Shown here: in pieces, positions 36,039-59,550 of the stretch
Position numbering within the stretch: position 1 is the first letter of the stretch
How the letters are laid out: every line of letters begins with the position of its first letter
Origin: Marinibacterium anthonyi
GTDB taxonomy: Bacteria; Pseudomonadota; Alphaproteobacteria; Rhodobacterales; Rhodobacteraceae
Direction of reading: 5' to 3'
NCBI GenBank assembly: GCA_003217735.2
Contig: CP031585.1
Location: 3,645,501 to 3,709,500, forward strand
DNA: 64,000 nucleotides
Notes under the pieces: model-generated
Database searches by the model: none
Told to the model about the DNA's origin: nothing
The model's input: only the letters and a program-made list of their open reading frames with translations
Made by a program: the position numbers and the translations under genes

Positions 36039-37703
36039 TCAACCCAGCCGGCTGATCACCACCAGCGCCTCGGGCTTGCGCCCGATTTCGTCCAGCGCGG
36101 TCTTGCGCGCCTGTTTGCGCAGCAGGTCTTCCAGCGCGTCGTCGTCCATCAGGGTCTTCTTGCCGGCCCGGGCCACGGCCTGGCCAAGGTCGGCCTCCAG
36201 CACCTCGGCCAGCGCCGCCTTGGACCGCCCGGTCTCGGGGAGGCCCATCAGTTCGACCCAGGGCTCGCCCAGGGGTTCGTCTTCTTCCAGGATGATCGTC
36301 ACCACGATGATCCCGTTCAGCGCCAGCCGGATCCGGTCACGCACGATCCCGTCCAGTGCCCCGATCTTCACCGCGCCATCCAGGTAAGTCTTGGTGACGT
36401 CGATATATTCCTCGACCGTTGGCGCATTGCCGGAAAGGTTCACCATGGTGCCGTTGGTGGCGATGATGCCGGCCATGCCCTTGGCTTCGGCCAGTCGGAC
36501 ATGTTCGCGCAGGTGCCGGTGTTCGCCATGCATCGGGATCACCATCTGCGGCTTGACCACGTCATGCACACGTTCCAGATCGGGGCGGTTGGCGTGGCCC
36601 GACACGTGATACCGCCCGGCGGAATCATCGACCACGTCGACACCCTTTTCCGAGAACTGGTTCATGATCCGGATAACACCGGCCTCGTTCCCCGGGATCG
36701 TCTTGGACGAGAACAGGAACGTGTCGCCCTCTTTCATCTCAAGCCCCAGGTACTTGCCCCGCGCCAGCTGGGCCGACGCCGCACGGCGTTCGCCCTGGCT
36801 GCCGGTCACCAGCAGCATCAGGTTCTCGCGCGGTATCTGGGTGGCGTCCTCGGGGCTGATGACCGACGGAAAATCGCTCAGAACACCGGTCTGCACGGCC
36901 GCCTCGACCATGCGGCGCATGGCCCGGCCCAACAGGACAATGGACCGCCCCGCCTTGGTCCCCGCTTCGGCCAGGGTCTTCACGCGGGCGATATTGGACG
37001 CGAAGGTCGTGGCGACGACCATGCCCGACGATTGCAGGATCAGCTCTTCGATCGCCGGGCCGACCTCGGATTCCGAGCGGCCCGGATGGGTCGAGAAGAC
37101 GTTGGTGCTGTCGCACATCAACGCCTTGACCCCGGTCGATGCGACCTCGGCCCACAGGTCCAGGTCGAAGGGTTCGCCGACCACCGGTTTGGCGTCGATC
37201 TTGAAGTCGCCGGTGTGAATCAGCCGCCCCTCGGGCGTGTCGATGACCAGCGCGGCGCTTTCGGGGATGGAATGCGACACCGGCAGGAAACCCACCGTGA
37301 ACGGGCCGGCCTGCACGGTCTCGGGCCAGGCCGACGCCAGGTGCACCACATCCTCGGGCAGCGCCCGTTCGGCCAGCTTGCGCCGGGCGATGTTGCCGGT
37401 GAACGCCCGCGCATAGATCGGCGCCTGCAGCGCCTCGTAGTGATGCGCCACGGCGCCCACGTGGTCTTCGTGGGCGTGGGTGATAAAGATCGCCTCCAGC
37501 CGGTCGGCACGGTCCGCCAGCCAGGCAATGTCGGGCAGGATCAGGTCGACACCGGGAGTGGTCTCCATATCCGGGAAGGCCACGCCGAGATCGACCAGGA
37601 TAAGACGTTCCTGCCCTTTCCGGCCGTAGCCGTAGACGTAACAGTTCATGCCGATTTCGCCGGCCCCACCCAGGGGGAGATAGATCAGTCGTTCACCGCT
37701 CAT
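36039..37703 (-). CDS. rnj: ribonuclease J
   Basis: A 554-residue metallo-beta-lactamase/beta-CASP ribonuclease that combines 5'-3' exo- and endonuclease action on RNA. The metal site HAHEDH is at residues 76-81, with SHSIPES and TGDFKID as further ligand motifs. The beta-CASP segment has VTGSQGE and VSGHANRPDL, then PMHGE. It lies 3 bases after coaX and is the last gene of the block that starts at nuoA. The terminator at 35994 follows. Confidence 0.94.
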   Translation of the reverse strand: MSGERLIYLPLGGAGEIGMNCYVYGYGRKGQERLILVDLGVAFPDMETTPGVDLILPDIAWLADRADRLEAIFITHAHEDHVGAVAHHYEALQAPIYARAFTGNIARRKLAERALPEDVVHLASAWPETVQAGPFTVGFLPVSHSIPESAALVIDTPEGRLIHTGDFKIDAKPVVGEPFDLDLWAEVASTGVKALMCDSTNVFSTHPGRSESEVGPAIEELILQSSGMVVATTFASNIARVKTLAEAGTKAGRSIVLLGRAMRRMVEAAVQTGVLSDFPSVISPEDATQIPRENLMLLVTGSQGERRAASAQLARGKYLGLEMKEGDTFLFSSKTIPGNEAGVIRIMNQFSEKGVDVVDDSAGRYHVSGHANRPDLERVHDVVKPQMVIPMHGEHRHLREHVRLAEAKGMAGIIATNGTMVNLSGNAPTVEEYIDVTKTYLDGAVKIGALDGIVRDRIRLALNGIIVVTIILEEDEPLGEPWVELMGLPETGRSKAALAEVLEADLGQAVARAGKKTLMDDDALEDLLRKQARKTALDEIGRKPEALVVISRLG

Positions 37704-37706
37704 GGC

Positions 37707-38480
37707 TTAGGAATTTTCCTTGTTATACTTGTGGATGACAGTTAAGCCATGCATTGTCAGATCGTCTTCGAACGCATCGAACAGCTCGACGCTTTGCTGG
37801 AACAACGGGGCCAGCCCCCCCGTAGAGATAACCCTCATTTCGCGGTCCCGCTCTGCCTTGATACGGCTGCAGATCTCGCGCACCAGGCCGATGTACCCCC
37901 AGAACACGCCGGACTGCATGCAGGCAACCGTATTCGTACCAACGACCCTCTGGGGCTTGGAAATGTCGACATGCGGCAGCGCCGCGGCGGCCTGGTGCAG
38001 GGCTTCCAGGCTCAGGTTCACGCCCGGGGCGATCACGCCCCCCACGTAGGCCCCGTCGGACGCGACCACGTCGAAGGTCGTCGCGGTGCCGAAATCCACC
38101 ACGATCAGGTTGCCGCCATGCCGGTCAAACCCCGCCACGGTATTGACCAGACGGTCCGGCCCGACGGCGGTCCCCACGTCGACCCGCACGTCGATGGGCA
38201 GGAGGCAGTCGGGCCGGCCCACGACGATGGGCCGCGTGTTGAAATAGCGATCCGCCAGGACGCGCAGGTTGAAGACCACGCGCGGCACGGTCGAGGACAC
38301 GATCATGTCGGTGATGTCGGCTTCGATCTTCTGGAACGCCATCAGCGTCGACAGCCAGACGTAATACTGGTCCGCCGTGCGCTGCCAGTCGGTGGCCGTG
38401 CGCCAGGTCGCCAGGAATTGCTGACCGTCCCAGATCGAGAAGACGGTATTGGTGTTGCCGCAGTCGATGGCAAGGAGCAT
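37707..38480 (-). CDS. coaX: type III pantothenate kinase
   Basis: A 257-residue CoaX that phosphorylates pantothenate in CoA synthesis. It is an ASKHA-fold kinase: MLLAIDCGNTNTVFSIW is phosphate-1, VGPDRLVNTVAG binds pantothenate and DFGTATTFDVV is phosphate-2. ISTGGLAPLF completes the fold. It lies between birA and the RNase J gene with gaps of 15 and 3 bases. The enzyme class is known to resist CoA feedback. Confidence 0.95.
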   Translation of the reverse strand: MLLAIDCGNTNTVFSIWDGQQFLATWRTATDWQRTADQYYVWLSTLMAFQKIEADITDMIVSSTVPRVVFNLRVLADRYFNTRPIVVGRPDCLLPIDVRVDVGTAVGPDRLVNTVAGFDRHGGNLIVVDFGTATTFDVVASDGAYVGGVIAPGVNLSLEALHQAAAALPHVDISKPQRVVGTNTVACMQSGVFWGYIGLVREICSRIKAERDREMRVISTGGLAPLFQQSVELFDAFEDDLTMHGLTVIHKYNKENS

Positions 38481-38495
38481 TCGCCCCTCCGTGTT

Positions 38496-39251
38496 TCAGA
38501 AAAAGACATCCGCCGCCGGGATGGCCACAAGGCCACGGGCGGTCTTTAGGACAAGATTGCCGGCTTCGTCCACCGTCTCGAACGTGCCAACCGTTTCGCT
38601 GTTGGTGGTGCGGGCGGTCATGACCTCGCCCAGCCGGGCGGCGCGGGCCAGCCAGGCGGTGCGGATCGGGGCAAAGCCGTAGCTGGTGAACTGCTGTTCA
38701 AGCCGCGCATAGGCCAGCGCCAACTGATCCAGGAAGGTTTCCGGGTCGACCCTGGCGCCGGTTTCCGACAACAGCGACACGGGCCGGACGGCGCCGGTTT
38801 CCACATCGGACGCGGGCGGGGCATCGACCAGGTTCACGCCGATGCCGATGAAAAGGTGGCTCAGCTGTCCACCCGCCCCCGCGCTTTCCATCAGGACGCC
38901 CGACAGCTTGCCGCCGTTCAGCAGCACGTCGTTAGGCCATTTCAGTGCCAGCCCATCGGCCCGCCCCGTCACCGCCACGACGGCATCGAACAGCGCCAGC
39001 GCCACCACGAAGGACCGCAGCGCCGCGATCCGCGCCGGTTCGGCCGGACGCAAAGCCAGGGTTGCGGTGAAATTGCCCCTGGGGTTCTTCCAGACCCGCC
39101 CCCGGCGTCCCCGGGCGGACATCTGTTCCATCGCCAGGATCCATTCGGGCCCGGCCAGGGACGGCGCCAGGCGCGCCGCCTCGTTCAGCGTGGAATCGAC
39201 CGTCTGAAGGACCCGCCGGCCGTACCCCGCCGGCCAGGTCTCAGTGGACAA
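38496..39251 (-). CDS. birA: biotin--[acetyl-CoA-carboxylase] ligase
   Basis: A 251-residue monofunctional biotin protein ligase without the N-terminal HTH of E. coli BirA, so it is not a repressor. The biotinyl-AMP loop is [10 protein letters not shown] and the lysine-containing KWPNDVL and GKLSGVLME follow. It loads biotin onto carboxylases; the MCC alpha subunit at 61371 carries a matching EAMKM site. It appears to start at TTG 39251, overlapping the nuoN stop by 11 bases, so it is coupled to complex I. Confidence 0.92.
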
Positions 39252-40686
39252 GTGCTGCCGCCGCGGCTGCGGCCGCCCCCTCGATGCCGAAAAGGTTCAC
39301 GATCCCCAGCAGCATGGCCGTCGCCGTGGCCGCCAGGAAAAGCGACAGAACCGGCGCTTCGGTGTGGTCAAGCTCTTCGCCCGTGTCGGTGCCGAAGTAC
39401 ATGTAATAGACGATGCGCAGGTAGTAGAACGCCCCGATGACCGAGGCGAACACACCGGCGACCGCCAGCCAGGTCAGCCCGCCTTCGTAGGCGGCGCGCA
39501 GCACGTAGACCTTCCCGATGAAGCCCAGCATCGGCGGCATGCCCGCCATCGAAAACAGCAGCACCAGCATCGCCAGCGCCCGCCCCGGTTCCCGGCCGGC
39601 ATAAAGGTTCAGCGACCGGGTGTCGGTGACCGGCTGTCCGTCCTTTTCCATCATCAGGATGAAGGCGAAGGTGCCGACGTTCATCGCGATGTAGACCGAC
39701 ATGTAGATCAGCATGGCCCGCACGCCGATTTCCAGCCCCGAGGCCAGGCCCATCAGCGCGTAGCCCATGTGCGCGATCGAGGAATAGGCCATCAGGCGCT
39801 TGATGTTGGTCTGCGCGATCGCCGCGATCGACCCCAGGAACATCGACGCGACCGACAGCGCCGCGATCACCTGCTGCCAGTCGCTGACCGCGTCGCCGAA
39901 GGCGTCGTACAGCACCCGCGCGAACAGCGCCATGGCCGCGACCTTGGGCGCGGTGGCGAAAAACGCGGTGACCGGGGTCGGCGCGCCTTCGTAGACGTCC
40001 GGCGTCCACATGTGGAACGGCACGGCCGAAACCTTGAACGCCAGGCCCGAGATCATGAAGACAAGGCCAAACAGGAAGCCCACCGGCAGGTCGCCCGCAT
40101 GCGCGGTCTGAATGATGTTGGAAAACAGCGTCGAGCCGGAATAGCCGTAGACCAGAGAGGCCCCGTACAGCAGCATGCCCGAGGACAGCGCGCCCAGCAC
40201 GAAGTACTTCAGCCCCGCCTCGGTCGATTTCACGCTGTCCCGGCGCAGCGCGGCAACCACGTACAGCGCCAGCGACATCAGCTCGAGCCCCATGTAAAGC
40301 ACCATGAGGTCGCCGGCGCTGACCATCACCATCATGCCGACCGCCGACAGGCACACCAGCACCGGGTATTCGAAGCGCAAGAGCCCGCGCCGCTGCATGT
40401 AATCCTGGCTCATCGCCAGGACGCAGGCGGCGGATATCAGGATCGCCACCTTGGAAAAACGCGAGAAGGCGTCGTCGATGAACATGCCGCCAAAGCCTTC
40501 ATGCGCCCCGCCGTTGCTGCGCGAGATGATCCAGACCGCGAGGACAAGCATCAGTCCGGAGGTCGCCCAGACCAGGCCGGGGGCCAGGCGATCCTTGCCG
40601 CCATAGACCCCACCCACCAGCGCCAGCATGGCGAAGATGGCCAGGATCATCTCGGGCAGGATTAGGTTCAGATCAGCCTGAAGCAT
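39241..40686 (-). CDS. nuoN: NADH-quinone oxidoreductase subunit N
   Basis: A 481-residue antiporter-like proton-pumping subunit with about 14 membrane helices. The functional helix breaks contain [16 protein letters not shown] and [17 protein letters not shown] with the conserved histidine and nearby lysines. [19 protein letters not shown] is a family signature. It is the last nuo gene, 15 bases after nuoM, and overlaps birA. Confidence 0.96.
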
Positions 40687-40701
40687 CAGGTGTCCTCCAG
40701 A

Positions 40702-42255
40702 TCAGTGAGACGCGGCCGTGGCGACGACGCCGTCGATGCGGCCCGCCTCCATCAGCGCGTCATTGTGATTTTTGATCAGGGCCGTGACGGTCGGGCCGAT
40801 GATATCGGTGACGGCGGCGGGATAGACCCCCAGAAACAGCGTCATCGCCACAAGAGGCGCGAACATCCATCTTTCGCGCAGGTCCAGGTCCTTGATCGTC
40901 TTCAGGCTCTCCTTGATCAGCGACCCCATCACCACGCGGCGATAGAGGAACAGCGCGTAGGACGCCGACAGGATGACGCCGGTCGTGGCGAACAGCGCGA
41001 CCCAGGTGTTGACCTTGAAGGCGCCCATCAGCGTCAGGAATTCACCGATGAAGCCCGAGGTCCCCGGAAGGCCGACGTTGGCCATGGTGAAGAACATGAA
41101 GATCAGCGCATAGACCGGCATCCGGTTGATCAGCCCGCCATAAGACGAGATCTCGCGCGTGTGCATGCGGTCGTAGATCACGCCGACGACCAGGAACAGA
41201 CCGGCCGAGATGAAGCCGTGGCTGAGCATCTGGAACATCGCGCCGTCGATCCCCTGCTGGTTCGCGGCAAAGATCCCCATGGTCACATAGCCCATGTGCG
41301 CGACCGACGAATAGGCGATCAGCTTCTTCATGTCGGTCTGCACCAGCGCCACCAGCGAGGTGTAGACGATGGCGATCACCGACAGCCACAGCACCAGCGG
41401 CGTCAGCACGTCGACCCCCACCGGGAACATCGGGAACGAGAACCGCAGGAACCCGTAGCCCCCCATCTTCAGCAGGATCGCGGCAAGGTCGACCGACCCC
41501 GCCGTCGGCGCCTGCACGTGGGCATCCGGCAGCCAGGTGTGCACCGGCCACATCGGCGTCTTGACCGCGAAGCTGATGAAGAAGCCCAGGAACAGGATCG
41601 TCTGGAACCCGCCCGGCACGGTGACCCCCAGCAGGACCATCGGATCCGAGGCAAAGTCGTAATGCAGCAGAGCCTCGATATCGGTGGTGTGGGCATGTTC
41701 ATAGATCGCCACCATCGAGATCAGCATCAGGACCGATCCCAGGAAGGTGTAGATGAAGAACTTGAACGCCGCGTAGATCCGCCGCGGCCCGCCCCAGATC
41801 CCGATGATCAGGAACATCGGGATCAGGCCCGCTTCGAAGAAGACGTAGAACAGCACCAGGTCCAGAGCCATAAACACGCCAAGCATCAGCGTTTCCAGCA
41901 CCAGGAAGGCGATCATGTATTCCTTGACCCGCCGCTGCGCATTCCAGGACGCGATGATGGTGATCGGCATCATGAAGGTCGTCAGCATGACGAACAGCAC
42001 CGAAATGCCGTCGACGCCCATCTTGTAGCGCAGGCCCAGCAGCCAGGGCCGGTCCTCGATCATCTGCAGCCCGGTGTTCGACGGATCGAACTGGAACAGG
42101 ATGAACAGCGACACGATGAAGGTAAGCGTGGTGGCGATCAGCGCCACCCACTTGGCATTCTTCTGAGCAGCCTCATCCTCGCCCCGCAGGAAGACCGCCA
42201 GGATCACCGCCGCGATCGACGGCGTGAAGGTGACGATGGAGAGAAGATTGTCCAT
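40702..42255 (-). CDS. nuoM: NADH-quinone oxidoreductase subunit M
   Basis: A 517-residue proton-pumping membrane subunit with about 14 helices. [20 protein letters not shown] and [18 protein letters not shown] are the signatures of NuoM, with the pumping lysines and histidine. The start overlaps the nuoL stop by one base. Confidence 0.97.
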
Positions 42256-44372
42256 TATTCCGCCCCTCCGGTGAGCGTCATCCAGGTAACGAAGATCGCG
42301 ATGCCGATGACCATCGCGAAGGCATAGGTGAAGATGTATCCGGTCTGCGCGCGACCGGCGAGCCGGGCCATGAAGGGGATGAAGCCAAGCGCGATGCTGT
42401 TGATCGACCCGTCGATGACCTTGCCGTCACCCTCTTTCCACAGGATGCGGCCGATCCACATGGTGGGCCGCACGAAGATCGCGTCGTAAAGCTCGTCGAA
42501 ATACCACTTGTTCAGCAGGAACAGGTACAGCGGACGCTGGTTCCGGGCCAGTTGCCCCGGCAGCGCCGGGTTCACGATGTAGAACAGGTACGCCATCCCA
42601 AGGCCCAGCAGCATCGCGATGAAGGGCGATACCTTGACCCAGACCGGCGATGCGTGGGCGTCTTCCAGCACGTGGTTGTCCGGCGCCATGTACAGCGCGC
42701 CCTGCCCCGGTTCCCCGGCAAAGACGACGTGATGTTCGCCCTCGGCCTGACCCGTGTCGGCGACCGCCGTGTCGCCATGGCCTTCCTCGGTGGCCTCGGT
42801 GGCGGTGTCGGCATGTCCTTCACCGGCATGAACGCCCGCCTCGGCGACCGGGATGCCGTAGAACCTGCCGACCTTGTCGGCATGCCCGAAGAAGTTGCCG
42901 TACCAGATCATCCCCGCGAAGACCGCGCCGAAGGCCAGCACACCCAGCGGCACCAGCATGGTCCTGGGGCTTTCATGGGCATGTTCATGGGCGTGCTTGT
43001 TGCCCCGCGCCTCGCCGAAGAAGGTCAGGAAGATCAGCCGCCAGGAATAGAAGCTGGTGAAGGCCGCGGCGATGACCAGCATCCAGAACCCGTACATCGT
43101 GCCACCGGCCCAGGCGCTTTCGATGATCGCGTCCTTCGACAGGAAGCCGGCGAAGCCGATGTTGGTCAGCGGAATGCCGACGCCGGTGATGGCCAGCGTG
43201 CCGATCACCATCGTCCAGAAGGTGAACGGGATCTTCTTCCTCAGCCCGCCATAGTTCATCATGTCCTGTTCGTGGTGCATCGCGTGAATGACGGACCCCG
43301 CGCACAGGAACAGCAGCGCCTTGAAGAAGGCGTGGGTCAGCAGGTGGAACATGGCCGCCGAATACATCCCGACGCCCGCGGCCACGAACATGTAGCCCAG
43401 CTGCGAACAGGTCGAATAGGCGATGACGCGCTTGATGTCGGTCTGCACCAGACCGACCGTCGCGGCAAAGAACGCCGTGGTCGCGCCGATGACGGTGATG
43501 AACCCGGCCGCGTAAGGCGCGAATTCATAGACCGGCGACATGCGGCAGACCAGGAAGACCCCCGCCGTCACCATGGTCGCGGCGTGGATCAGCGCCGACA
43601 CAGGTGTCGGGCCTTCCATCGCGTCCGGCAGCCAGGTGTGCAGGAACAGCTGCGCCGATTTCCCCATCGCCCCGATGAACAGCAGGATGCCCACCACCTC
43701 GGCCGCGTTCCAGTCGCGCCACAGGAAGGTCAGCTGAGTCTCGGCGAGGGTCGGGGCCGACGCGAAGATGTCCGACAGCGAGATACTGTCGACCACGTAA
43801 TACAGGACGAAGATCCCCAGCGCGAAGCCGAAGTCGCCGACCCGGTTGACGATGAACGCCTTCATCGCCGCCTTGTTGGCCGACGGTTTGCGGAAATAGA
43901 ACCCGATCAGCAGGTAGGACGCCAGGCCGACCCCTTCCCAGCCAAAGAACATCTGGGCCAGGTTGTCCGAGGTCACCAGCATCAGCATGGCAAAGGTGAA
44001 CAGCGACAGGTAGGCAAAGAACCTTGCCCGGTAGCTTTCGTTGTCGGCGAAGTTCTCGTCATGCGCCATGTAGCCGAAGCTGTAGAGATGCACGAGCGAG
44101 CTGACCGTGGTGATCACGATCAGCATGATCGCGGTCAGCCGGTCCATCCGGATCATCCAGTCGGCCGACAGCGTGCCGCTTTCGATCCAGCGCATGATGG
44201 TGATCTGTTCGGTCACGCCGTCGAAGGTGAAGAAGACGATCCAGGACAGGAAGGCCGACAGGAACAGCAGCCCGGTGGCGGTCCACTGGGCGGCCTTCTC
44301 GCCGATCAGGGTCCAGCCAAAGCCGCAGACGATCGCACCCACCAAAGGGGCGAAAAGGAGGATGGTTTCCAT
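42255..44372 (-). CDS. nuoL: NADH-quinone oxidoreductase subunit L
   Basis: A 705-residue distal proton-pumping subunit with the long C-terminal lateral helix. Signatures are [36 protein letters not shown] and [17 protein letters not shown]. It is longer than the E. coli subunit (613 residues). The extra length includes a His/Glu-rich stretch ([10 protein letters not shown]) and a hydrophilic insert of about 90 residues before the last helices ([19 protein letters not shown]). The insert could contact metal or neighbouring proteins; that is inference. Confidence 0.97.
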
Positions 44373-44379: not shown

Positions 44380-44685
44380 TTAACCTTTCATCATGTTGAC
44401 GTCTTCCACGGCGATCGTGCCGCGGTTGCGGAAGAAGCACACCAGGATCGCAAGGCCGATCGCCGCCTCGGCGGCGGCGACCGTCAGGACGAAAAGCGTA
44501 AAGACCTGTCCCACCAGGTCGCCCAGGAAGGACGAAAAGGACACCAGGTTGATGTTCACCGCCAGCAGGATAAGTTCGACGCTCATCAACAGGATGATGA
44601 TGTTCTTGCGGTTCAGAAAGATCCCGAAGATGCCGATGACGACAAGCGTCGCCGCCACCGTCAGGTAATGTTCAAGTCCGATCAT
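44380..44685 (-). CDS. nuoK: NADH-quinone oxidoreductase subunit K
   Basis: A 101-residue subunit with three membrane helices. The conserved membrane glutamates lie in [11 protein letters not shown] and [12 protein letters not shown]. It is 7 bases from nuoL and 4 bases after a gene for a 153-residue non-core protein. Confidence 0.96.
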
Positions 44686-45168: not shown

Positions 45169-45378
45169 TCAGTGCCCGTTCGATCCGTTTTCAATCCGCC
45201 GTTTCGCGATCTGCCGGCTGATCCAGCCGATCACGATGGGGCCCTTGTACCCGGTCTTCTTCTGGAAGATCCGGTAGCAGATCGCCGTGGCGCCCACCTT
45301 CACCCCCCACAGCGCCGCGACACCCGCCACACCGATGGTCTGAAAGATCTCTTCGGCGATGCCGAGGACCCCGGCCAT
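45169..45378 (-). CDS. small hypothetical protein between nuoJ and nuoK
   Basis: A 69-residue protein with one hydrophobic segment (TIGVAGVAALWGVKVGATAICY) and a very basic C-terminus (RQIAKRRIENGSNGH). It looks like a single-pass membrane protein. It starts 1 base after the nuoJ stop and so is translated with it. I do not recognise the family. Confidence 0.65.
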   Translation of the reverse strand: MAGVLGIAEEIFQTIGVAGVAALWGVKVGATAICYRIFQKKTGYKGPIVIGWISRQIAKRRIENGSNGH

Positions 45379-50960: not shown

Positions 50961-51374
50961 TCACGAATTGCAACGCCCCCGCAATGTCAGCGTGTCGTTC
51001 TCGACCGGCAGCACCTGGCTGTCCGGACCGACCTGCCACTTGATGTCGGAATTGCCGTAGTTCTGGATGCAGTACCGCGTGCCTTCGTACTTCCCGGCCT
51101 CCCGCGCGCCCACCATCGAGGCCGACACCGGGCGCACCTGCACCTCGAAGCTGCGCTTGTCGTCGCGGCTCACGGCCGATGACTTGTGCTTGTACTCGAC
51201 GCCTTCGAACAGAACCTTCTCCTGGTTCCACAACACGTCGCCACAGCCCGTCACAGCCGTCAGAACCGCCAGGGCAGCGCCTATCCGAACCTTGGCCCGA
51301 ACCTTGGCCCGAACCTTGGCCCGAACCTTGGCCCGAACCATCATCTTCGTCTTGTCATTCATCGTGCCGCTCAT
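50961..51374 (-). CDS. predicted lipoprotein with a four-fold VRAK repeat
   Basis: A 137-residue protein. Residues 13-28 are four exact VRAK repeats encoded by 12-bp DNA units, which give an unusually long basic n-region to a signal peptide that ends in lipobox TAVTGC (C44). The mature part (VLFEGVEYKHKSSAVSRDD, then RYCIQNYGNSDIKW) has two further cysteines. It overlaps the next lipoprotein gene upstream (ATGA). The two lipoproteins share the pattern EGVEYK / DGTEYKVS, so they may be paralogues. Confidence 0.7.
   Translation of the reverse strand: MSGTMNDKTKMMVRAKVRAKVRAKVRAKVRIGAALAVLTAVTGCGDVLWNQEKVLFEGVEYKHKSSAVSRDDKRSFEVQVRPVSASMVGAREAGKYEGTRYCIQNYGNSDIKWQVGPDSQVLPVENDTLTLRGRCNS
51286..51333. 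repeat. four 12-bp tandem repeats inside a signal-peptide coding region
   Basis: CGAACCTTGGCC is repeated exactly four times, with a partial fifth unit. It encodes VRAK repeats on the minus strand. Exact identity of the units suggests recent expansion and possible length variation between strains. Confidence 0.92.
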
Positions 51375-51802
51375 CCGAAGGCCGTTCCGCAGTGGTTGCG
51401 CACGCGCCAGGACCGCGTGCTGGTGTAATAGGTTGCCTTTCCCGACACCGGTGCGCGGGGCAATCCGTAGGTGTCGCAGAAGGCGCTTGCGATCGCGATG
51501 GTCCCAAGCCGGTCGTCGCCGTCCATGGGCTGCCCGTCGGCGCGCGCGATCTCGATGAAGGTGGCGTCGAAACTGGCCGTCGTATCCGCGCCGCCGGGCA
51601 CCGCGATCTTCTCGGCCACGGCCTGCATCGAATAGCTGACCTTGTACTCTGTCCCGTCATAGGTCAGCGGCCGTTCGACGCCCGCCGCCGTCTCGGGCAG
51701 GCCCGTGCAGGCCGGAATGACCAGCAGCGCCAGCAGGGCCCCGATGGCCCCCGTGCCCCCCCTTACCCCGGTAGCCGAGATCGGTTTGCGCAGAGCCGTC
51801 AT
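51371..51802 (-). CDS. predicted lipoprotein in the nuo operon
   Basis: A 143-residue protein with lipobox VIPAC (C32). The mature part contains PLTYDGTEYKVSYSMQAVAEKI and AFCDTYGLPR, with a final NHCGTAFG, so two cysteines could form a disulfide. It overlaps the DUF3291 gene upstream and the VRAK lipoprotein gene downstream by ATGA. It resembles the latter around EYK and may be a distant paralogue. The function is unknown. Confidence 0.68.
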   Translation of the reverse strand: MTALRKPISATGVRGGTGAIGALLALLVIPACTGLPETAAGVERPLTYDGTEYKVSYSMQAVAEKIAVPGGADTTASFDATFIEIARADGQPMDGDDRLGTIAIASAFCDTYGLPRAPVSGKATYYTSTRSWRVRNHCGTAFG

Positions 51803-52326
51803 CCCACCTGTTCCTTGTCGTCCTCGGCACCATCCGCGATGCCGTCCGTGATGCGGGCCCGCATGGTCTTCAGGTGCGCCCAGCCGAAGGCATGGTCACT
51901 GTCGCCATGCGCCTCCAGGTGATCCAGCCGCGCCTTCGCCTCCGCGATCGTCGGGCGATGGCCTTCGGTCACCCACCACAGCACCAGCCGGGGGCCGGTG
52001 TTTTCGGCGTCGTCGTACCATTCGCCCCGCCGGTCATAGAACCGTTTGTGCACCGTGTTCCAGACGAAATGTTCAAGCGTTTCAGCACTGTCCCACACGG
52101 AAAGGGTCGACGCCGTGCGCGGGTTGCCCCCCAGCACGCCGCCCGCATCCAGCTGCGCGCCTTCCATGTCACCGTCGGTCATCCGCCAGACGAACCCGGG
52201 GCTGCGTGCGGCCAGCCCGTTCACCCGGTCCAGGTTGTTGGCAAAATCCGCCACGCGGGGATCGTCCCAGTCATGGGCCAGCGTGCCCATGTTGAACTCG
52301 GCGATATGATGACCGTCCGGCTGCAC
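51799..52326 (-). CDS. DUF3291 domain-containing protein
   Basis: A 175-residue soluble protein of the DUF3291 family, which has a ferredoxin-like ABM (monooxygenase-type) fold. DDPRVADFANNLDRVNGLAARSPGFVWR is the hallmark, then STLSVWDSAETLEHFVWNTVHKRFY and LVLWWVTEGHRPT. It starts at GTG 52326 with GGAG in the end of nuoF, 3 bases after its stop. Some ABM proteins act on quinones or haem, but a role here is only speculation. Confidence 0.82.
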   Translation of the reverse strand: MQPDGHHIAEFNMGTLAHDWDDPRVADFANNLDRVNGLAARSPGFVWRMTDGDMEGAQLDAGGVLGGNPRTASTLSVWDSAETLEHFVWNTVHKRFYDRRGEWYDDAENTGPRLVLWWVTEGHRPTIAEAKARLDHLEAHGDSDHAFGWAHLKTMRARITDGIADGAEDDKEQVG

Positions 52327-52329: not shown

Positions 52330-53625
52330 TTACTCCGCCGCCACCGCGCTGACGCGACCGGTGCGCTTGGCCTTGATCCGGTCCTCGATCTCGTCCCGGA
52401 AGTTGCGGATCAGGCCCTGGATCGGCCAGGCGGCCGCGTCGCCCAGGGCACAGATCGTGTGGCCTTCGACCTGCTTGGTCACGTCGAACAGCATGTCGAT
52501 CTCCTCGATCTCGGCCTCGCCCTTCACCAGGCGGTCCATGACCCGCATCATCCACCCCGTGCCTTCCCGGCACGGCGTGCACTGGCCGCAACTTTCATGC
52601 TTGAAGAACTTCGACAGCCGCCAGACGGCTTTGACCACGTCCACCGACTGGTCCATCACGATCATGCAGCCCGTCCCGAACGACGACTTGTTCTCGCGCA
52701 TCCAGTCGAAATCCATGATCGCGTCTTCCAGCTGATCCTTGCGCAGGATCGGGCAGGACGCGCCGCCCGGGATGATGGCCTTCAGGTTGTCCCAGCCGCC
52801 CCGGATCCCGCCGCCATGCTTCTCGATAATCTCGCGCACCGGCAGCGACATCTCTTCCTCGAAGACGCAGGGCGTGTTCACGTGGCCCGTCAGCGCGAAC
52901 AGCTTGGTGCCCGCGTTGTTCGGCCGCCCGAAGGACGAAAACCAGTCGGGCCCGCGCCGCAGGATCGTCGGCGCCACGGCAATGGATTCGACGTTGTTCA
53001 CCGTGGTCGGGCAGCCATACAGGCCCGCGCCGGCCGGGAACGGCGGCTTCATCCGGGGCATGCCCTTCTTGCCTTCCAGGCTTTCCAGCAGCGCGGTTTC
53101 CTCGCCGCAGATATAGGCCCCGGCCCCGTGATGCAGGTACAGGTCGAAATCCCAGCCCGACCCGGCCGCGTTCCGCCCCAAGAGCCCCGCGTCATAACAT
53201 TCGTCGATCGCCGCCTGCAGGGCTTCGCGTTCGCGGATGTATTCGCCGCGGATGTAGATGTAGGCCGCATGCGCCCCCATGGCGAAGGACGCGATCAGCG
53301 CGCCTTCGCACAGCGTGAAGGGGTCGTGCCGCATGATCTCGCGGTCCTTGCAGGTCGCGGGTTCGGATTCGTCGGCGTTGATCACCAGGTAGGCCGGACG
53401 CCCGTCGCTTTCCTTGGGCATGAACGACCACTTCAGACCCGTCGGAAAGCCCGCGCCGCCGCGTCCGCGCAGACCGCTGTCCTTCATCGTCTGGATGATC
53501 CAGTCGCGCCCCTTGCCGATGATGTCGGCGGTTCCGTCCCAGTGGCCGCGCTTCTGCGCGCCGGCCAGCGTGCGCTCGTGCATACCGTAGATATTGGTGA
53601 AGATGCGGTCTTCGTCCTTGAGCAT
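52330..53625 (-). CDS. nuoF: NADH-quinone oxidoreductase subunit F
   Basis: A 431-residue NADH- and FMN-binding subunit. [16 protein letters not shown] at residues 51-66 binds NADH/FMN, and [15 protein letters not shown] supplies ligands of cluster N3. ATG 53625 follows the DUF5337 gene by 7 bases; the upstream open frame is not used. Confidence 0.97.
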
Positions 53626-53632: not shown

Positions 53633-53857
53633 TTACCCCTGGTTGCTCTGGCGCAGGCGCCAGATCTGGAAGATGTTGACGCCGGCGTAGATGAACGCCG
53701 CCAGCGTTGCAAAGTCGAACAGAAGCAGGACACGGTCGGTGATCCCGAACAGCGGCGCAACGACCTGCAGCGCCAGCCACATCAGGGCCGCGCCGGCGAT
53801 GACAAGCGCCACGTGCCGCCCCCTGCGGGTGATCGCCTGATCCAGGTCCTTGCTCAC
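53633..53857 (-). CDS. DUF5337-like small membrane protein
   Basis: A 74-residue protein with two membrane segments ([24 protein letters not shown] and [23 protein letters not shown]) and basic ends. It matches my knowledge of DUF5337, a family seen in Rhodobacterales beside nuoE and nuoF. It is 7 bases upstream of nuoF. The function is unknown. Confidence 0.72.
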
Positions 53858-53890: not shown

Positions 53891-54289
53891 TCAGGCGGGT
53901 CCGGCCTTGTATGTCCACGTGCCCTTGCGGGCCGCCAGCTCCGCCTCTCCGGGCAGGGCCTTCGACGGTTTCACCATCGGTTCGGCCGCCGGCGTATCGG
54001 CCGCCGGCGTATCGGCCACCGGGGCTTCAGGCTCCACCGAAGCCATCGGCGCTTCGGCCACCTCCGGCGTTGCCTCCGGCGCGGTTGGCGATGCGGTCCC
54101 GGGCTGGTCCGGCTTGGCCTTGCGGCCCGTCATCCGGCTCAGAACCAGATGGGCGATGCCTGTCGCCGCGATTCCGGCCACCAAAGCCCCTGTCAGCGTC
54201 GATCCGGTCAGCGGCTTCCACAGGATCGCCACCGCGACCCCCGCAAGCACCGGCTTGACCCAGATCTTCTCCTTCGCGTCATCCGCCAT
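53891..54289 (-). CDS. hypothetical membrane protein with Pro/Ala-rich tail
   Basis: A 132-residue protein. Two short hydrophobic segments at residues 10-50 (VLAGVAVAILW and ALVAGIAATGIAHLVLS) are followed by a Pro/Ala/Glu-rich tail with a repeated ADTPA encoded by a 15-bp unit present twice at 53991-54020. It lies between nuoE and the DUF5337 gene. I recognise no family. The Pro/Ala tail resembles the linker in the neighbouring NuoE extension. Confidence 0.65.
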   Translation of the reverse strand: MADDAKEKIWVKPVLAGVAVAILWKPLTGSTLTGALVAGIAATGIAHLVLSRMTGRKAKPDQPGTASPTAPEATPEVAEAPMASVEPEAPVADTPAADTPAAEPMVKPSKALPGEAELAARKGTWTYKAGPA

Positions 54290-54308: not shown

Positions 54309-55421
54309 TCAGTCGTCGTCGTATGTCCCTTCTTCCTTCGCCTTCCTGGCAAAGTCCGTGTCTTCCCCGCTGGCCAGGATCTTGGCTTGGCTGACCCATT
54401 CATCCCGCGTGACCCGGCCCTTGAACCCTTCGAGGTTCTCGTCGACCCATGCGATCTCGGCCTCGCTCCAGCCGGCGATCTGGCTGAAATGGTAAAAGCC
54501 CATGGACTGCAGAAGCGCTTCCAGCTTCGGGCCCACGCCCTTGATCATCTTCAGGTCGTCCGCCTGGCCGTCGCGCGGCGCGTCAAGCGTCTCGGGCTTG
54601 GCGGGCGTCGCCTCTGCCCCCGGCGCCGGTTCGGGCGCGCTTTGCTGCGTCGGCTTGGTCTCGGCCTTCTTGTCGGTCTTCGGCCTGGCCTTGGTCTTTA
54701 CCTGCGGCGCACCGTCGTTCAGCCAGGGCGTCAGCAGCGGCACCTCGGTCCCGTCGATCCGCTTGACCGTGTCGCCCAGGTCAACCGCCCGCGCGACCGA
54801 GGCATTGTACTCCGCCCGTCCCTCGACCCAGTCCTTCAGCACGTTCGGCCCGTCCAGCGCTTCGGCGGCATAGCGTCCGTTCTGCGGCCCCGGCACCGGC
54901 ACCTTGCCCGCCGCCAGGTCGTCGAGAATCCGCGCAAAGCTCTCGGCGGTCAGGTCCTCGTAGTAATCCTTGCCGATCTGCGCCATCGGCGCATTCGCGC
55001 AGGATCCAAGGCATTCCACCTCTTCCCACGACAGCTTGCCATCGGCCGACAGCATGTGCGCCTTCGGCGCGATCTTGTCCTTGCAGACCCCGATCAGGTC
55101 CTCGGCGCCGCAGATCATGCAGGTGGTCGTCCCGCAGACCTGGATATGCGCGACCGACCCCACCGGCTGCAGCTGGAACATGAAGTAGAACGTCGCGACT
55201 TCCAGCGCCCGCATGTAGGCCATGCCCAGCATTTCGGCCACGTGTTCGATGGCGGGACGGGTCAGCCAGCCTTCCTGCTCCTGCGCGCGCCACAGCAGCG
55301 GGATGATCGCCGATGCCTGCCGGCCTTCGGGATACTTGGTGATCTGCCCTTCGGCCCAGGCCGCGTTGGCGGGGGTGAAGGCGAAGCTGTCCGGCTGATC
55401 CGGGTGAAGACGACGCAACAT
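54309..55421 (-). CDS. nuoE: NADH-quinone oxidoreductase subunit E with helix-hairpin-helix extension
   Basis: A 370-residue NuoE, much longer than the usual 160-240. Residues 1 to about 170 are the thioredoxin-like 2Fe-2S subunit, with CGTTTC and CLGSCANAP as the cluster ligands. A Lys/Pro/Ala-rich linker follows at about residues 240-285. The C-terminal 80 residues form a helix-hairpin-helix-like domain ([19 protein letters not shown]). ATG 55421 overlaps the stop of a possible small gene (TGATG). Confidence 0.94.
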
Positions 55422-55660
55422 CAGGCTGTTCCTTCCATGGCCGGGCACGGCGCCTGTTCCGGGGCGGAAACCGCCCGGGCGATGCCCGGTGTATCAGTGG
55501 ACGTCGGGCACCAGGCCCGGTGGGTCATGTCTGTCCGGCCGCGGGCCGGAAATGTCTGGTCCGGCGCACCGGCCGCACCAGGGTCGCGGCGAACCGTCAG
55601 GGGGCTGTCCCCTGCCCCGGCGCGGGATGCGCCCGGGATATGGCCCGCCCGCCCGGTCAT
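55421..55660 (-). CDS. possible 79-residue ORF bridging a lipoprotein gene and nuoE
   Basis: This frame exactly fills the 235-base gap. Its ATG overlaps the upstream lipoprotein stop (ATGA) and its TGA overlaps the nuoE start (TGATG). The product is Arg/Pro/Ala/Gly-rich with no hydrophobic core, and its third-position GC is lower than in neighbouring genes, so it may be a chance frame. Confidence 0.3.
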
Positions 55661-55959
55661 GCGGCGCAGGGCCCCGTGGTCACGCGCACGCCGCCTTCGG
55701 GCAGGCGTTCGGCATTGCCGATGGCCAGGTAGAACTGGGTGATCTCGATCACTTCCTGGCGCGTCAGGTTGGCCTGGAATTCCACCGCCCCGAACTGGCG
55801 CTGGTCGATCAGCACGCAATCGGTGGTCGCCACCGCCGACAGGTAATCCGCCCGCTGATCGGCCGTACTCGTGGCCCCGCCCAGCGTCGCCAGGGCCTGC
55901 TCGTCGCAGCCGGCCAGCGCGGACAGTCCCGCGATCAAAAGTACAGCCCGTTTCAGCAT
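55657..55959 (-). CDS. predicted lipoprotein between nuoD and nuoE
   Basis: A 100-residue protein with lipobox LAGC (C18) and a small mature domain (RADYLSAVATTDCVLIDQRQFG, then LTRQEVIEITQFYLAIGNAERL). Two cysteines, one near the C-terminus in TTGPCAA, may pair. AAGGAGGTGACC precedes the ATG. The 91-base gap to nuoD holds only a weak 26-codon frame. I recognise no family. Confidence 0.7.
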   Translation of the reverse strand: MLKRAVLLIAGLSALAGCDEQALATLGGATSTADQRADYLSAVATTDCVLIDQRQFGAVEFQANLTRQEVIEITQFYLAIGNAERLPEGGVRVTTGPCAA

Positions 55960-56050: not shown

Positions 56051-57265
56051 TCACCGGTCGACTTCTCCGAACACCACGTCCAGGGTCCCGATGATCGCCG
56101 CCACGTCGGCCAGCTGGTGGCCCCCGGCGACATGGTCCATGGCCTGCAGGTGCATGTAGCCCGGCGCCTTGATCTTGGCCCGGTACGGCCGGTTGGTCCC
56201 GTCCGCCACCACGTAGACCCCGAATTCGCCCTTCGGCGCCTCGACCGCGGCATAGACCTCGCCCGCGGGCACGTGGAACCCTTCGGTGTACAGCTTGAAG
56301 TGATGGATCAGCGATTCCATCGACGTCTTCATGTCCGACCGTTTCGGCGGCGTGATCTTGCCCCGCGCCAGGATGTCGCCCGGGCTTGCGCGCAGCTTGT
56401 CGCATGCCTGCAGGATGATCTTCCGGCTCTCTTCCATCTCGGCCATGCGGCACAGGTAGCGATCATAGCAATCGCCGTTCTTGCCCACCGGAATCTGAAA
56501 GTCGAATTCGTCATAGCATTCATAGGGCTGCGCGCGGCGCAGGTCCCAGGCCATGCCCGACCCGCGCACCATCACCCCGGAAAACCCGTGTTCCAGCACG
56601 TCGTCTTCTGTCACCACGCCGATATCGACGTTGCGCTGCTTGAAGATCCGGTTCTCGGTCAGCAGCCCGTTCAGGTCATCCAGGAACGACGGGAAATCCC
56701 TGGCCCAGGCCTCGATATCGTCGATCAGCTCGGGCGTCAGGTCCTGGTGCACGCCGCCGGGACGGAAATACGCCGCGTGCAGCCGCGCCCCGCAGGCCCG
56801 TTCGCAGAACACCATCAGCTTCTCGCGATGCTCGAACCCCCACAGCGGCGGCGTCAGCGCGCCGACGTCCATCGCCTGGGTGGTCACGTTCATCAGGTGG
56901 TTCATGATCCGCCCGATCTCGCAGAACAGCACCCGGATCAGCTGCGCGCGGCGCGGCACCACGGTGCCGGTCAGCTTCTCGATCGCCAGGCACCAGGCAT
57001 GTTCCTGGTTCATCGGCGACACGTAATCCAGCCGGTCGAAATAGGGCAGGTTCTGCAGGTAGGTCCGGCTCTCCATCAGCTTTTCGGTCCCACGGTGCAG
57101 CAGCCCGATATGGGGATCGCACCGTTCGACGATCTCGCCGTCCAGTTCAAGCACCAGCCGCAGCACGCCGTGGGCCGCCGGGTGCTGAGGCCCGAAGTTG
57201 ATGTTGAAGTTGCGGATCTTCTGTTCGCCGGTAAGGGCGTCTTCGAAGCCTTTCGAACCGTCCAT
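56051..57265 (-). CDS. nuoD: NADH-quinone oxidoreductase subunit D
   Basis: A 404-residue subunit that forms the quinone-binding cavity with Nuo[20 protein letters not shown] and [14 protein letters not shown] are the signatures, with the quinone-ligating His in [27 protein letters not shown] is the C-terminal hallmark. The ATG overlaps the stop of a 56-residue protein gene by one base. Confidence 0.97.
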
Positions 57266-57435
57266 CAGAGCTTCTCCAAATCCTGTAGTTTACGACCCAT
57301 CCACCAGACAAGCACCGCCAGGCCAAGCGGTATGATGCAGGCCACGGCCCAGTACTTGCTGATGCCGAAGTGCGGCAACAGCTTTACCATGGGGATTGCC
57401 GTCGACGCCATGATCAACCAAAGCAGGAATTCCAT
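57265..57435 (-). CDS. 56-residue membrane protein between the GFA gene and nuoD
   Basis: This small gene is short enough to escape automatic calling. It encodes 56 residues: [17 protein letters not shown], a loop, then [19 protein letters not shown] and a basic, charged end ([11 protein letters not shown]). Two membrane segments are likely. Its ATG overlaps the GFA-family stop and its TGA overlaps the nuoD start, each by one base (TGATG), so it is locked into the operon. No other frame is plausible here. The function is unknown. Confidence 0.7.
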
Positions 57436-57851
57436 CACGTCCCCCCGCCCGCGAACATGGCCATGACTTCGGCGCCGGTCAGCTTCTTCGTGTCACCGGC
57501 CAGCGCGTAGCTGGCGGGCTTGCTGTCGACAAAGATCTCGGACACCACCGGGAAGGCCCCGGGATCGGGAAACGCCTGGATCGACACGATCGCCGTCTTG
57601 CCGTCCTTCGACCGCCAGGCCAGGTTCGATCCGCATTCCCCGCAGAACACCCGCTCGCCCCAGTCGGACGAGCCATAGACCTTGACCGGCGCGCCGGCAT
57701 CGAAGCTCAGCGCGGCGCAGGCCACGCCCAGGAACACGCCGCCCGACCATTGACGGCACGTCTCGCAATGACAGGCGCCCGCCTCGGCCTCCGGCTCGGC
57801 GGTAAAGCGGCAGGCGCCGCACAGGCATTTTCCCTGCAAAGCCACGCTCAC
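57435..57851 (-). CDS. GFA/CENP-V family zinc protein
   Basis: A 138-residue protein of the GFA (glutathione-dependent formaldehyde-activating enzyme) fold. Zinc cysteines lie in CLCGAC, CHCETC and FCGECGS. The family name comes from one enzyme; most members have no known substrate. GTG 57851 overlaps the nuoC stop (GTGA). Its place between nuoC and nuoD is unusual for the fold and suggests recruitment into the operon. Confidence 0.85.
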
Positions 57852-58459
57852 TTGGCGCCCTCCTCCGTCTTCTCGTCGCCGGGCAGGATGTACTTGGCCC
57901 CTTCCCACGGCGACATGAAGTCGAACTGGCGGTATTCCTGCACCAGGCTCACCGGTTCATAGACCACGCGTTTCAGCGCCTCGTCATAGCGGACCTCGGT
58001 ATACCCGGTGGTCGGGAAATCCTTGCGCAGCGGATAGCCGCGGAACCCGTAATCCGTCAGGATCCGACGCAGGTCCGGGTGGCCCGAGAACAGGATGCCG
58101 AACATGTCGAACACCTCGCGCTCCGGCCAGTTGGCGCAGGGGTGGACCGACACGATCGACGGCACCACGTCCTCCTCGCGGATCGACAGGCGCAGGCGAA
58201 CCCGGTGGTTCTGGTACATCGACAGCAGGTGATAGACCACGTCGAACCGCTTGGCCCGTTCGGGGTGGTCGACGGCGGTGATGTCGGTCAGGGTGGAAAA
58301 CTTGCAGGTCGCGTCCGACATCAGGAAATCGACGAAAGCGGTGATCGAGGCCGGGGCCACGTTGATCGTCAGCTCTCCGAAGGCGACCTCGTAGCCCAGC
58401 ACGCAGTCGGGGCGTTTCATCTCGATATGGGCGCCAAGCTCGTTCAGGGCTTCGGTCAT
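57848..58459 (-). CDS. nuoC: NADH-quinone oxidoreductase subunit C
   Basis: A 203-residue peripheral-arm subunit. [30 protein letters not shown] is the diagnostic region, and [17 protein letters not shown] follows. It is not fused to NuoD, unlike in E. coli. The 98-base gap after nuoB holds a GC-rich hairpin (GGCCGAC and GTCGGCC) and no gene. Confidence 0.96.
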
Positions 58460-58557: not shown

Positions 58558-59091
58558 TCAGCGGGCCAATGTCCCCGTCCGGCGGATCTTCCGCTGCAGC
58601 TGGAGGATCCCGTAAAGCAGCGCCTCGGCCGTCGGCGGGCACCCGGGCACGTAGACGTCCACCGGCACCACCCGGTCACAGCCGCGCACCACCGAATAGC
58701 TGTAATGGTAATAGCCCCCGCCATTGGCGCAGGACCCCATCGACAGCACGTAACGCGGTTCCGGCATCTGGTCGTAGACCTTGCGCAGCGCCGGCGCCAT
58801 CTTGTTGGTCAGCGTGCCGGCGACGATCATCAGATCCGACTGGCGCGGGCTGGCGCGCGGCGCGGTGCCGAACCGTTCCACGTCGTAGCGCGGCATCGAC
58901 GTGTGCATCATCTCGACCGCGCAGCAGGCCAGCCCGAAGGTCATCCAGTGCAGCGACCCGGTGCGCGCCCAGTTGATCGCGTCCTCGACCGACGTCAGCA
59001 GAAAGCCCTTGTCGGTCAACTCCTTGTTCAGCGCCTGCGTGGCGACCTCGCGGTCGCCCCCGGCCGTGTTCGCTCCGGTCATCACTCCCAT
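58558..59091 (-). CDS. nuoB: NADH-quinone oxidoreductase subunit B
   Basis: A 177-residue subunit that carries cluster N2, the electron donor to quinone. The tandem cysteines are in [11 protein letters not shown], with GSCANGGG and [13 protein letters not shown] as the other ligands. I take ATG 59091, which has AAGGGGG; ATG 59082 is three codons later. The start overlaps the end of nuoA. Confidence 0.96.
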
Positions 59092-59447
59092 TCCAGAGCC
59101 CCCTTCTTCCATTCGTAGGCAAACCCGATGGTCAGCACGCCCAGGAAGACCATCATCGACCAGAAGCCCACCATCGAGATGTCCTTGAAGGCCACGGCCC
59201 AGGGGAACAGGAAGGCGATTTCCAGATCGAAGATGATGAACAGGATCGACACCAGGTAGAACCGGACATCGAATTTCATCCGCGCATCGTCGAAGGCGTT
59301 GAACCCGCACTCGTAGGCACTGACCTTTTCGGGGTCCGGGTTGCGAATGGCGATCACCATGGCCGACAGCATCAGGACAAGACCAAGTCCGATGGCGACG
59401 ACGAGGAACACTAGGATCGGGAGGTACTCCCGCATCAACTCTTCCAC
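59082..59447 (-). CDS. nuoA: NADH-quinone oxidoreductase subunit A
   Basis: A 121-residue membrane subunit with three helices. [37 protein letters not shown] is shared by all NuoA proteins (seen here in two consecutive parts, the ECG loop and the DLE helix). GTG 59447 follows an AAGGAG site and is preferred over ATG 59435. It is the first gene of the complex I operon. Confidence 0.95.
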
Positions 59448-59521
59448 GCGCTGGCTCCTTCTCTGCGCGCCCCGGATGGACCCGGATCGGCGCAACGATC
59501 TTAAAGTCTGGCTGTGACGAG

Positions 59522-59550
59522 TCTCTACTCCCGCCTCCAGCAAGGGTCAA
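59522..59550 (-). promoter_or_regulatory. candidate promoter of the nuo operon
   Basis: On the minus strand, TTGACC (59545-59550) and TAGAGA (59522-59527) are separated by exactly 17 bp, with a leader of about 70 bases to the nuoA GTG. It is the best match in the 199-base gap between the hydratase gene and nuoA. Confidence 0.5.

Follow-up and report, generated by a model that had tools for sequence, protein, structure and literature searches.

Candidate helper and cargo genes in the expanded nuo operon of Marinibacterium anthonyi

Complex I of Paracoccus denitrificans, a non-phototroph, serves as a bacterial model close to the mitochondrial enzyme, and the nuo (nqo) operon of this species is the described system with which we compare a gene cluster of Marinibacterium anthonyi. 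The cluster lies in 64,000 nucleotides of contig CP031585.1 (positions 3,645,501 to 3,709,500 of the forward strand; this whole analysed stretch is referred to as the window), which belong to a 6.8 Mb genome. Here 27 genes run on the minus strand from nuoA (59435) to nuoN (39241), 14 of them encoding core subunits of complex I and 13 encoding other proteins.

The sections on composition in the 2.3 Å structural report on P. denitrificans complex I name 14 core subunits, NDUFS4, NDUFS6, NDUFA12 and PIMT, with a model of 17 known subunits and PIMT that covers 97% of their residues (PMC11522691). The corresponding section of another report lists minor proteins, three supernumerary subunits and every core subunit other than Nqo7 and Nqo11 (PMC8115037). 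In Rhodobacter sphaeroides, transposon sequencing found nuoA-N to be essential on LB, and the passages on these genes do not mention the extra ones (PMC5513736). A second described system is a photosynthetic one. According to the relevant passages of PMC12079452, protein-O of Dinoroseobacter shibae is a subunit of the reaction centre-light-harvesting 1 (RC-LH1) complex and is encoded between nuoE and nuoF. Like PufY (protein-U) of the R. sphaeroides RC-LH1, it is described as a hairpin of two helices located in the gap that separates the reaction centre from LH1 (PMC12079452, PMC9007983).

The nuo operon in the window is expanded in a way that is common among Rhodobacteraceae, and it is not unique. 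A sequence-only reading of the window had claimed that all 14 nuo genes are present, interleaved with at least twelve non-core genes, most of which overlap their neighbours by 1-4 bases. This description is partly confirmed: it was right in substance, with all 14 genes in place and the non-core genes numbering 13, but overstated for the overlaps, which occur at 8 of the 20 junctions that involve an accessory gene and at 10 of the 26 junctions between nuoA and nuoN (10 more of the 26 have gaps of 0-20 bases). On balance we lean towards the view that the accessory genes form two layers. The first would consist of five widespread families that each keep to a single junction: a hairpin protein (the E-F protein) and DUF5337 between nuoE and nuoF, DUF5333 between nuoF and nuoG, the predicted lipoprotein l132 between nuoG and nuoH, and a CMD-like protein between nuoI and nuoJ. 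Their products may act substoichiometrically as helpers that build or organise quinone-linked membrane complexes, complex I among them, and would not be part of the finished complex I. The second layer (GFA, tm56, l100, DUF3291, l143, l137, tm69 and a13) would be exchangeable, patchy cargo in the same fixed slots, often gained or lost, with recombination through the conserved nuo genes on either side as the probable route of exchange. The genes are as follows, in operon order.

59082..59435, minus strand: nuoA (Pfam PF00507)
58558..59082, minus strand: nuoB (Pfam PF01058)
57848..58459, minus strand: nuoC (Pfam PF00329)
57435..57851, minus strand: GFA-type protein, C-D slot (PF04828; GTG start; overlaps nuoC by 4 bases)
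57265..57435, minus strand: tm56, 56-amino-acid (aa) membrane protein, C-D slot (two helices by eye; no Pfam match above cut-off)
56051..57265, minus strand: nuoD (translation; hidden Markov model (HMM)/tblastn matches)
55657..55959, minus strand: predicted lipoprotein l100, D-E slot (lipobox LAGC by eye)
54309..55421, minus strand: nuoE with a C-terminal helix-hairpin-helix (HhH) domain at about aa 269-361 (PF01257)
53891..54289, minus strand: E-F slot protein with membrane hairpin, linker and motif LPGEAELAARKGTWTY (related to RC-LH1 protein-O)
53633..53857, minus strand: DUF5337 small membrane protein, E-F slot (PF17272)
52330..53625, minus strand: nuoF (HMM/tblastn matches)
51799..52326, minus strand: DUF3291 protein, F-G slot (PF11695; alternative start 52290)
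51371..51802, minus strand: predicted lipoprotein l143, F-G slot (lipobox IPAC by eye)
50961..51374, minus strand: predicted lipoprotein l137, F-G slot (lipobox VTGC by eye; N-terminal 12-base repeat)
50433..50864, minus strand: DUF5333 secreted protein, F-G slot (PF17267)
48411..50429, minus strand: nuoG (PDB match to 8qby_G)
48016..48414, minus strand: predicted lipoprotein l132, G-H slot (lipobox LAAC by eye)
46969..48009, minus strand: nuoH (PF00146)
46386..46880, minus strand: nuoI (translation; HMM/tblastn matches)
45979..46389, minus strand: CMD-like protein without cysteine, I-J slot (PF02627)
45380..45982, minus strand: nuoJ (translation; HMM/tblastn matches)
45169..45378, minus strand: tm69, 69-aa membrane protein, J-K slot (weakly constrained)
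44690..45151, minus strand: a13, secreted protein (by eye), J-K slot (matches in both congeners)
44380..44685, minus strand: nuoK (translation; HMM/tblastn matches)
42255..44372, minus strand: nuoL (translation; HMM/tblastn matches)
40702..42255, minus strand: nuoM (translation; HMM/tblastn matches)
39241..40686, minus strand: nuoN (translation; HMM/tblastn matches)
38496..39251, minus strand: birA-type biotin protein ligase, downstream (PF03099)
37707..38480, minus strand: type III pantothenate kinase (coaX), downstream (PF03309)
36039..37703, minus strand: RNase J, downstream (PF22505, PF17770)

Starts of open reading frames (ORFs) were chosen manually, membrane helices were judged by eye or from hydropathy, and the lipobox-like sequences were judged by eye without a signal-peptide program. 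The GFA, DUF3291, DUF5333, DUF5337 and CMD matches lie above the curated Pfam cut-offs, and nothing exceeded a cut-off for the other eight accessory genes. The three downstream genes continue the same close-spaced run. In a scan for promoters and terminators the count of sites was below that of shuffled sequences.

The P. denitrificans operon has the same gene order as the window and holds the five widespread families at the same junctions. Reading the ORFs of the DSM 413 locus gave seven extra genes compared with 13 in the window: an E-F hairpin protein with an HhH domain, DUF5337, DUF5333, a lipoprotein that ends in the l132 domain, a 60-aa protein between nuoH and nuoI, and two CMD genes. 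The six unidentified reading frames that the sequence-only reading had ascribed to Paracoccus were not confirmed from the literature. The 60-aa protein and the second CMD gene set this operon apart from the window, as does the position of the l132 domain at the end of a longer lipoprotein. The HhH domain is placed in reverse: NuoE of P. denitrificans (239 aa) has no HhH tail and its E-F protein has the domain, whereas in the window the domain is on NuoE, whose alignment to the 239-aa chain 8qby_E stops at aa 234.

The wider survey used a family sample of 120 genomes, one per genus and including that of the window, in all of which nuoG was found. Loci of up to 20 kb around nuoG were obtained from 80 of the other 119 genomes, which were picked batch by batch in order of NuoG rank if their contig had upstream room; some of the 39 genomes not taken also had such room. 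Locus counts for each family include the window and require both flanking genes within the locus, and the numbers of changes given below come from a quick NuoG tree. Counting the window, 62 loci span nuoA to nuoL, and among these the window ranks third by non-core DNA between the two genes (5,485 bp), with 19 incompletely covered loci, some possibly longer, left unranked. In the 62 complete loci, inserts of at least 100 bp are found at E-F (60 loci), F-G (55), G-H (51), I-J (46), D-E (36), J-K (34), C-D (33) and H-I (13), and are rare at A-B (2), B-C (3) and K-L (3). Clusters of insert ORFs that occur in at least three loci (some of them shadow reading frames) are confined to a single junction in 35 of 37 cases. 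The other two are the tm56 cluster (17 at C-D, 4 at F-G) and a sulfotransferase cluster (15 at C-D, 1 at B-C). The four F-G members of the tm56 cluster look like a different small membrane protein merged by the clustering. The order of nuoM and nuoN appeared swapped in some loci, which was put down to nuoN lying beyond the fetched 20 kb and a paralogue being matched, and was disregarded.

The first-layer families are widespread. DUF5337 is present in 70 of 77 loci, CMD and l132 each in 58 of 81, DUF5333 in 56 of 78, and the E-F protein in 59 of the 79 loci evaluated (57 of 77 in the tree-based count). In 59 full-length named loci, which were selected by likeness to P. denitrificans NuoE, the counts are 58 for DUF5337, 58 for l132, 56 for CMD and 51 for DUF5333. 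The changes on the NuoG tree are few for the number of presences: 6 for DUF5337, 7 for CMD, 9 for DUF5333 and 11 for l132. Pairwise distances track those of NuoG for DUF5337 (r = 0.30), l132 (r = 0.42) and CMD (r = 0.37), with p = 0.002 in all three.

DUF5337 occurs in 145 of the 149 genomes of an order sample, with a single match each, and has no match in 14 control genomes; no match exceeded the cut-off in 94 other-family genomes of a class sample, where one weak match was recorded (E = 8.5e-4). Fourteen DUF5337 matches carry one stop inside the matched stretch, possibly where the match overruns the gene's own stop. DUF5333 was found in 138 of the 149 genomes. The lipoprotein l132 occurs in 86 of the 120 family genomes and lies directly downstream of nuoG on the same strand in 86 of 86 (median gap 21 bp), and none was found in 55 other-family genomes. 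From these matches DUF5337 and l132 look family-restricted. Invariant cysteines and motifs are kept across genera in l132 and DUF5333; PDB profile searches gave no credible relative of either (best E 0.46 and 0.37, respectively), and a literature search on DUF5333 and DUF5337 found no paper. AhpD carries a redox CxxC; the CMD protein of the window (45979-46389) contains zero cysteines and so lacks this AhpD-type signature, and 10 of 118 CMD proteins from nuo loci bear any cysteine.

Selection was assessed from the ratio of non-synonymous to synonymous substitution rates (dN/dS) among the window and two congeners, in both of which all 13 accessory genes were matched; in one congener DUF5333 is only a remnant, and in the other GFA is truncated where the fetched sequence ends. 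Nine core genes gave 0.03-0.26. Values for l132 (0.16-0.23) and CMD (0.07-0.19) are core-like; the further values are for DUF3291 (0.17-0.21), l100 (0.19-0.25), the E-F protein (0.20-0.39), DUF5337 (0.24-0.42), tm56 (0.12-0.35), l143 (0.30-0.42), a13 (0.30-0.45), l137 (0.30-0.55) and GFA (0.46-0.49). DUF5333 gave 0.22-0.50, where two of the three pairs rest on a 42-codon remnant. Only tm69 appears weakly held (0.57-0.73), the other 12 accessory genes staying below 0.6. As dN/dS is below 1 for all 13, all look protein-coding. The expectations of the sequence-only reading that the small genes would be under purifying selection and would recur in close relatives thus mostly hold, the latter with the qualification that DUF5333 survives as a remnant in one congener.

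The second layer behaves differently in the survey. DUF3291 is present in 31 of 78 loci, l137 in 29 of 78, l100 in 24 of 76, tm56 in 16 of 71, tm69 in 5 of 81 and GFA in 4 of 71, while l143 and a13, both present in the two congeners, have no match in the 80 loci. The NuoG tree requires 22 changes for DUF3291 (31 presences), 18 for l100 (24), 14 for tm56 (16) and 14 for l137 (29). Distances track NuoG for l137 (r within 0.30-0.42). The tie is weak for l100 (r = 0.27, p = 0.03) and unclear for tm56 (p = 0.08), and DUF3291 shows none (r = 0.08, p = 0.30). Weak profile kinship was seen between l143 and a cluster that occupies the F-G slot of 7 loci (80%, 116 columns) and between a13 and a secreted family of the J-K slot (51%, 68 columns). 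Profile-profile comparison aligned l137 with l143 over 43 columns (73%) and with l132 over 47 columns (44%); a single disulfide lipoprotein family of l132, l137, l143 and DUF5333 was considered and is unsupported, the profile matches being short and of signal-peptide size. In the N-terminal region of l137, a perfect 12-base tandem repeat of 4.6 copies (51285-51339) encodes AKVR repeats, which are missing from the translated l137 of one congener (L082).

These patterns raise the possibility that the whole set is hitchhiking cargo, with the operon tolerating in-frame small genes of unrelated function that are swapped by recombination. Slot contents do vary even within the genus. Both congeners have sulfotransferases in the C-D slot, identified by Pfam in L083 and by eye in L082, and L083 also carries a methyltransferase in its F-G slot and, in H-I, a protein of 126 aa. 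The many changes of DUF3291 point the same way, as does one locus (L064, genome G060) with about 8.1 kb between DUF5333 and nuoG. Such an account could well hold for the eight patchy genes. It fails for DUF5337 with its presence in 145 of 149 genomes, for l132 with its invariable place beside nuoG, and in view of the family restriction, and as an explanation of all 13 genes we consider it rather unlikely, though deserving of weight. The ORFs in the 8.1 kb insert resemble, by eye, a sugar ABC transporter cluster. L083:409-1395 and L083:7734-8438 are slot-filling genes of that congener, and the C-D, D-E and F-G slots of relatives hold sulfotransferases, a methyltransferase, and MAPEG, lumazine-binding-like and DUF4267 proteins.

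A second alternative treats the products of the interleaved genes as genuine supernumerary subunits of complex I, either lost in purification or lineage-specific. Their strict operon position and the purifying selection would fit, and like NDUFS4, NDUFS6, NDUFA12 and CI-PIMT they are non-core proteins tied to alphaproteobacterial complex I. However, those supernumerary subunits are unmatched by the P. denitrificans operon extras that we searched, and the 2.3 Å structure was modelled with 17 known subunits and PIMT. When the seven P. denitrificans operon proteins were strung together and compared with all PDB chains, no chain of a complex I entry was found. The four matches were RC-LH1 protein-O, chain 9wqv_a and two CMD enzymes, that is, two reaction-centre chains and two enzymes only. 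Chain 9wqv_a bears the name "NADH:ubiquinone oxidoreductase 41 kd complex i subunit", yet entry 9wqv includes a reaction-centre M chain, and the full list of PDB matches to the window NuoE contains no NuoE-like chain from this entry. This comparison covers the P. denitrificans homologues of the five widespread families, as distinct from the patchy genes of the window or its own enzyme.

The HhH domain also bears on the question of subunits, as it recurs on NuoE and on E-F proteins. It is found on one or the other in 58 of 59 loci with an E-F protein, compared with 13 of 20 loci without. In 40 genomes with the domain on both, the likeness of the two copies within a genome is 0.711, compared with 0.671 (E-F protein to NuoE), 0.681 (between E-F proteins) and 0.676 (between NuoE proteins) across genomes (permutation p = 0.0002, uncorrected for relatedness). 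By these comparisons the domain looks like a case of concerted evolution. On the other side, the domain is promiscuous, being contained in the NCBIfam profiles of ribosomal proteins L21 and S2 and of phasin PhaH. In two genomes the domain also sits on ORFs that look by eye like ribosomal protein L21 (L188:973-1695 and L189:1033-1695). Taken together, the evidence makes the subunit explanation improbable.

The E-F protein deserves separate consideration. It was called by an ORF rule (at least 95 aa, a hydrophobic stretch and a gap of at least 400 bp), which was applied to 79 of 83 nuo loci, the other four (L055, L064, L079 and L081) not reaching both nuoE and nuoF; L070 was excluded by hand, its E-F ORF being an extended DUF5337. 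A count of 72 of 80 loci from an iterated profile was discarded because the profile had acquired the HhH domain and matched NuoE. The window copy lies between nuoE and nuoF, as the protein-O gene does, and shares with D. shibae protein-O (PDB 8YY9) an N-terminal membrane hairpin (by eye, with a 17-residue stretch of hydropathy 1.9 among the first 80 residues), a long linker and a motif, which reads LPGEAELAARKGTWTY in the window and LAGEAELAGRKGSWSY in protein-O. It differs in lacking the C-terminal HhH domain and, with zero cysteines, the cysteine pair that closes the protein-O hairpin, and a PF00124 scan of the window genome found no reaction-centre gene. In a PDB search with the window NuoE, its HhH tail matched 8yy9_O ("Reaction center protein O chain"). 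An E-F protein from another genus matched the same chain in hairpin, motif and HhH domain. In one pufLM-bearing genome (G030, loci L011 and L179), the 239-aa protein between nuoE and nuoF is identical to 8yy9_O over its full length, and we therefore take this genome to be D. shibae.

Two further chains with a match to protein-O are 9lts_A ("Protein LRC") and 9wqv_a. The reaction-centre M chains in entries 9lts, 9ltv and 9wqv are distinct from that of D. shibae, so protein-O-like subunits occur in at least three reaction-centre complexes; a literature search on the three entries found no paper. The sole known partners of this protein type are reaction-centre complexes. The idea that PufY might be a nuo gene found no support: it has no credible sequence match in the nuo loci examined (best tblastn E 0.08), and a scan of the genome contigs found no relative at all.

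One could suppose that the E-F gene serves the photosystem first of all and is merely lodged within the nuo operon. Besides the presence of protein-O in the D. shibae RC-LH1 (PMC12079452) and the relatives in the 9lts/9ltv and 9wqv complexes, this would fit the pufLM-bearing congener G120, whose nuo E-F copy lacks the HhH domain and which has an HhH ORF with a membrane stretch (by eye) directly after crtA-bchI-bchD-bchO on its pufLM contig (L190:8033-8716), a possible second protein-O-like photosystem gene. Reaction-centre genes were scanned in 80 of the 83 genomes (G049, G016 and G017 were left out). An E-F protein occupies the slot in 23 of 29 phototrophs and, among genomes that lack reaction-centre genes, in 36 of 50 (Fisher p = 0.59), tree-controlled pairs show no tie between the E-F protein and phototrophy, and P. 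denitrificans has the protein as well. The window genome keeps the gene under selection without a reaction centre. Since the protein persists without a photosystem, the photosystem cannot be its only role, and we regard a primarily photosynthetic gene as very unlikely. That the protein-O gene lies in this slot is already known; the breadth of the E-F slot in phototrophs and non-phototrophs is new. Two candidate marks of phototrophy, both compared without regard to relatedness, were set aside: the cysteine pair goes in the opposite direction (10 of 23 phototrophs compared with 26 of 36 others), and the HhH domain (22 of 23 compared with 25 of 36) was not used.

The least likely explanation, that the inserts mainly tune translational coupling and subunit ratios while their products matter little, agrees with the overlapping and closely spaced junctions but not with the invariant cysteines and motifs of l132 and DUF5333 or with the constraint on every accessory gene except tm69.

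We therefore return to helpers and exchangeable cargo. Helpers fit better than subunits or pure hitchhikers, as the families are widespread, position-locked, mostly constrained and absent from the finished P. denitrificans enzyme, and the accessory proteins may have roles in assembly or biogenesis. The sequence-only reading had proposed an accessory module of complex I, with four lipoproteins suggesting a periplasmic part. This is partly supported: the genes are conserved and under selection, and four lipobox-like sequences are seen by eye. It is also too simple, since the P. denitrificans structure lacks the operon extras, l132 is the one widespread lipoprotein, and the E-F type was found in RC-LH1 and not in complex I.

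Several observations weigh against a helper layer. Absence from purified complex I could reflect loss in detergent, and proteins that bind weakly or were lost may have been missed in the P. denitrificans model, for which the sequences of known subunits were used. Calls of the E-F protein rest on the ORF rule and not on homology alone, and with 16 changes on the NuoG tree this family is nearer to the patchy layer. Distances of DUF5333 do not track NuoG (r = 0.14, p = 0.11), and for core genes the correlation with NuoG is higher (r = 0.54-0.77) than for the accessory families. Some genomes contain two or three DUF5333 matches (the window genome has two), and in G136 and G139 DUF5333 lies on a separate contig from DUF5337. 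Congener G120 (L082) retains only the C-terminal end of DUF5333 before nuoG (oriented positions about 9145-9294), which indicates that DUF5333 is dispensable there. Two loci from divergent genera (L078 and L080) have a compact operon with all nuo genes and none of the searched families, indicating that complex I does not need them.

More tentatively, and with doubts that outweigh our confidence, we speculate that the nuo operon of Rhodobacteraceae could double as a shared biogenesis locus for quinone-linked membrane complexes. The E-F protein would then have an older role in respiratory membranes and would have become a photosystem part later in some phototrophs, and the HhH domains of NuoE and the E-F protein would evolve in concert and dock both proteins to a common partner.

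The five families kept across most of the sampled genera provide a short list of candidate assembly or membrane-organisation factors, given that the solved enzyme of P. denitrificans lacks the extra proteins of its operon. Respiration and photosynthesis are linked by the E-F gene, in that relatives of a photosystem subunit are under selection in organisms without a photosystem, and the role of protein-O becomes testable in an easy non-phototrophic host.

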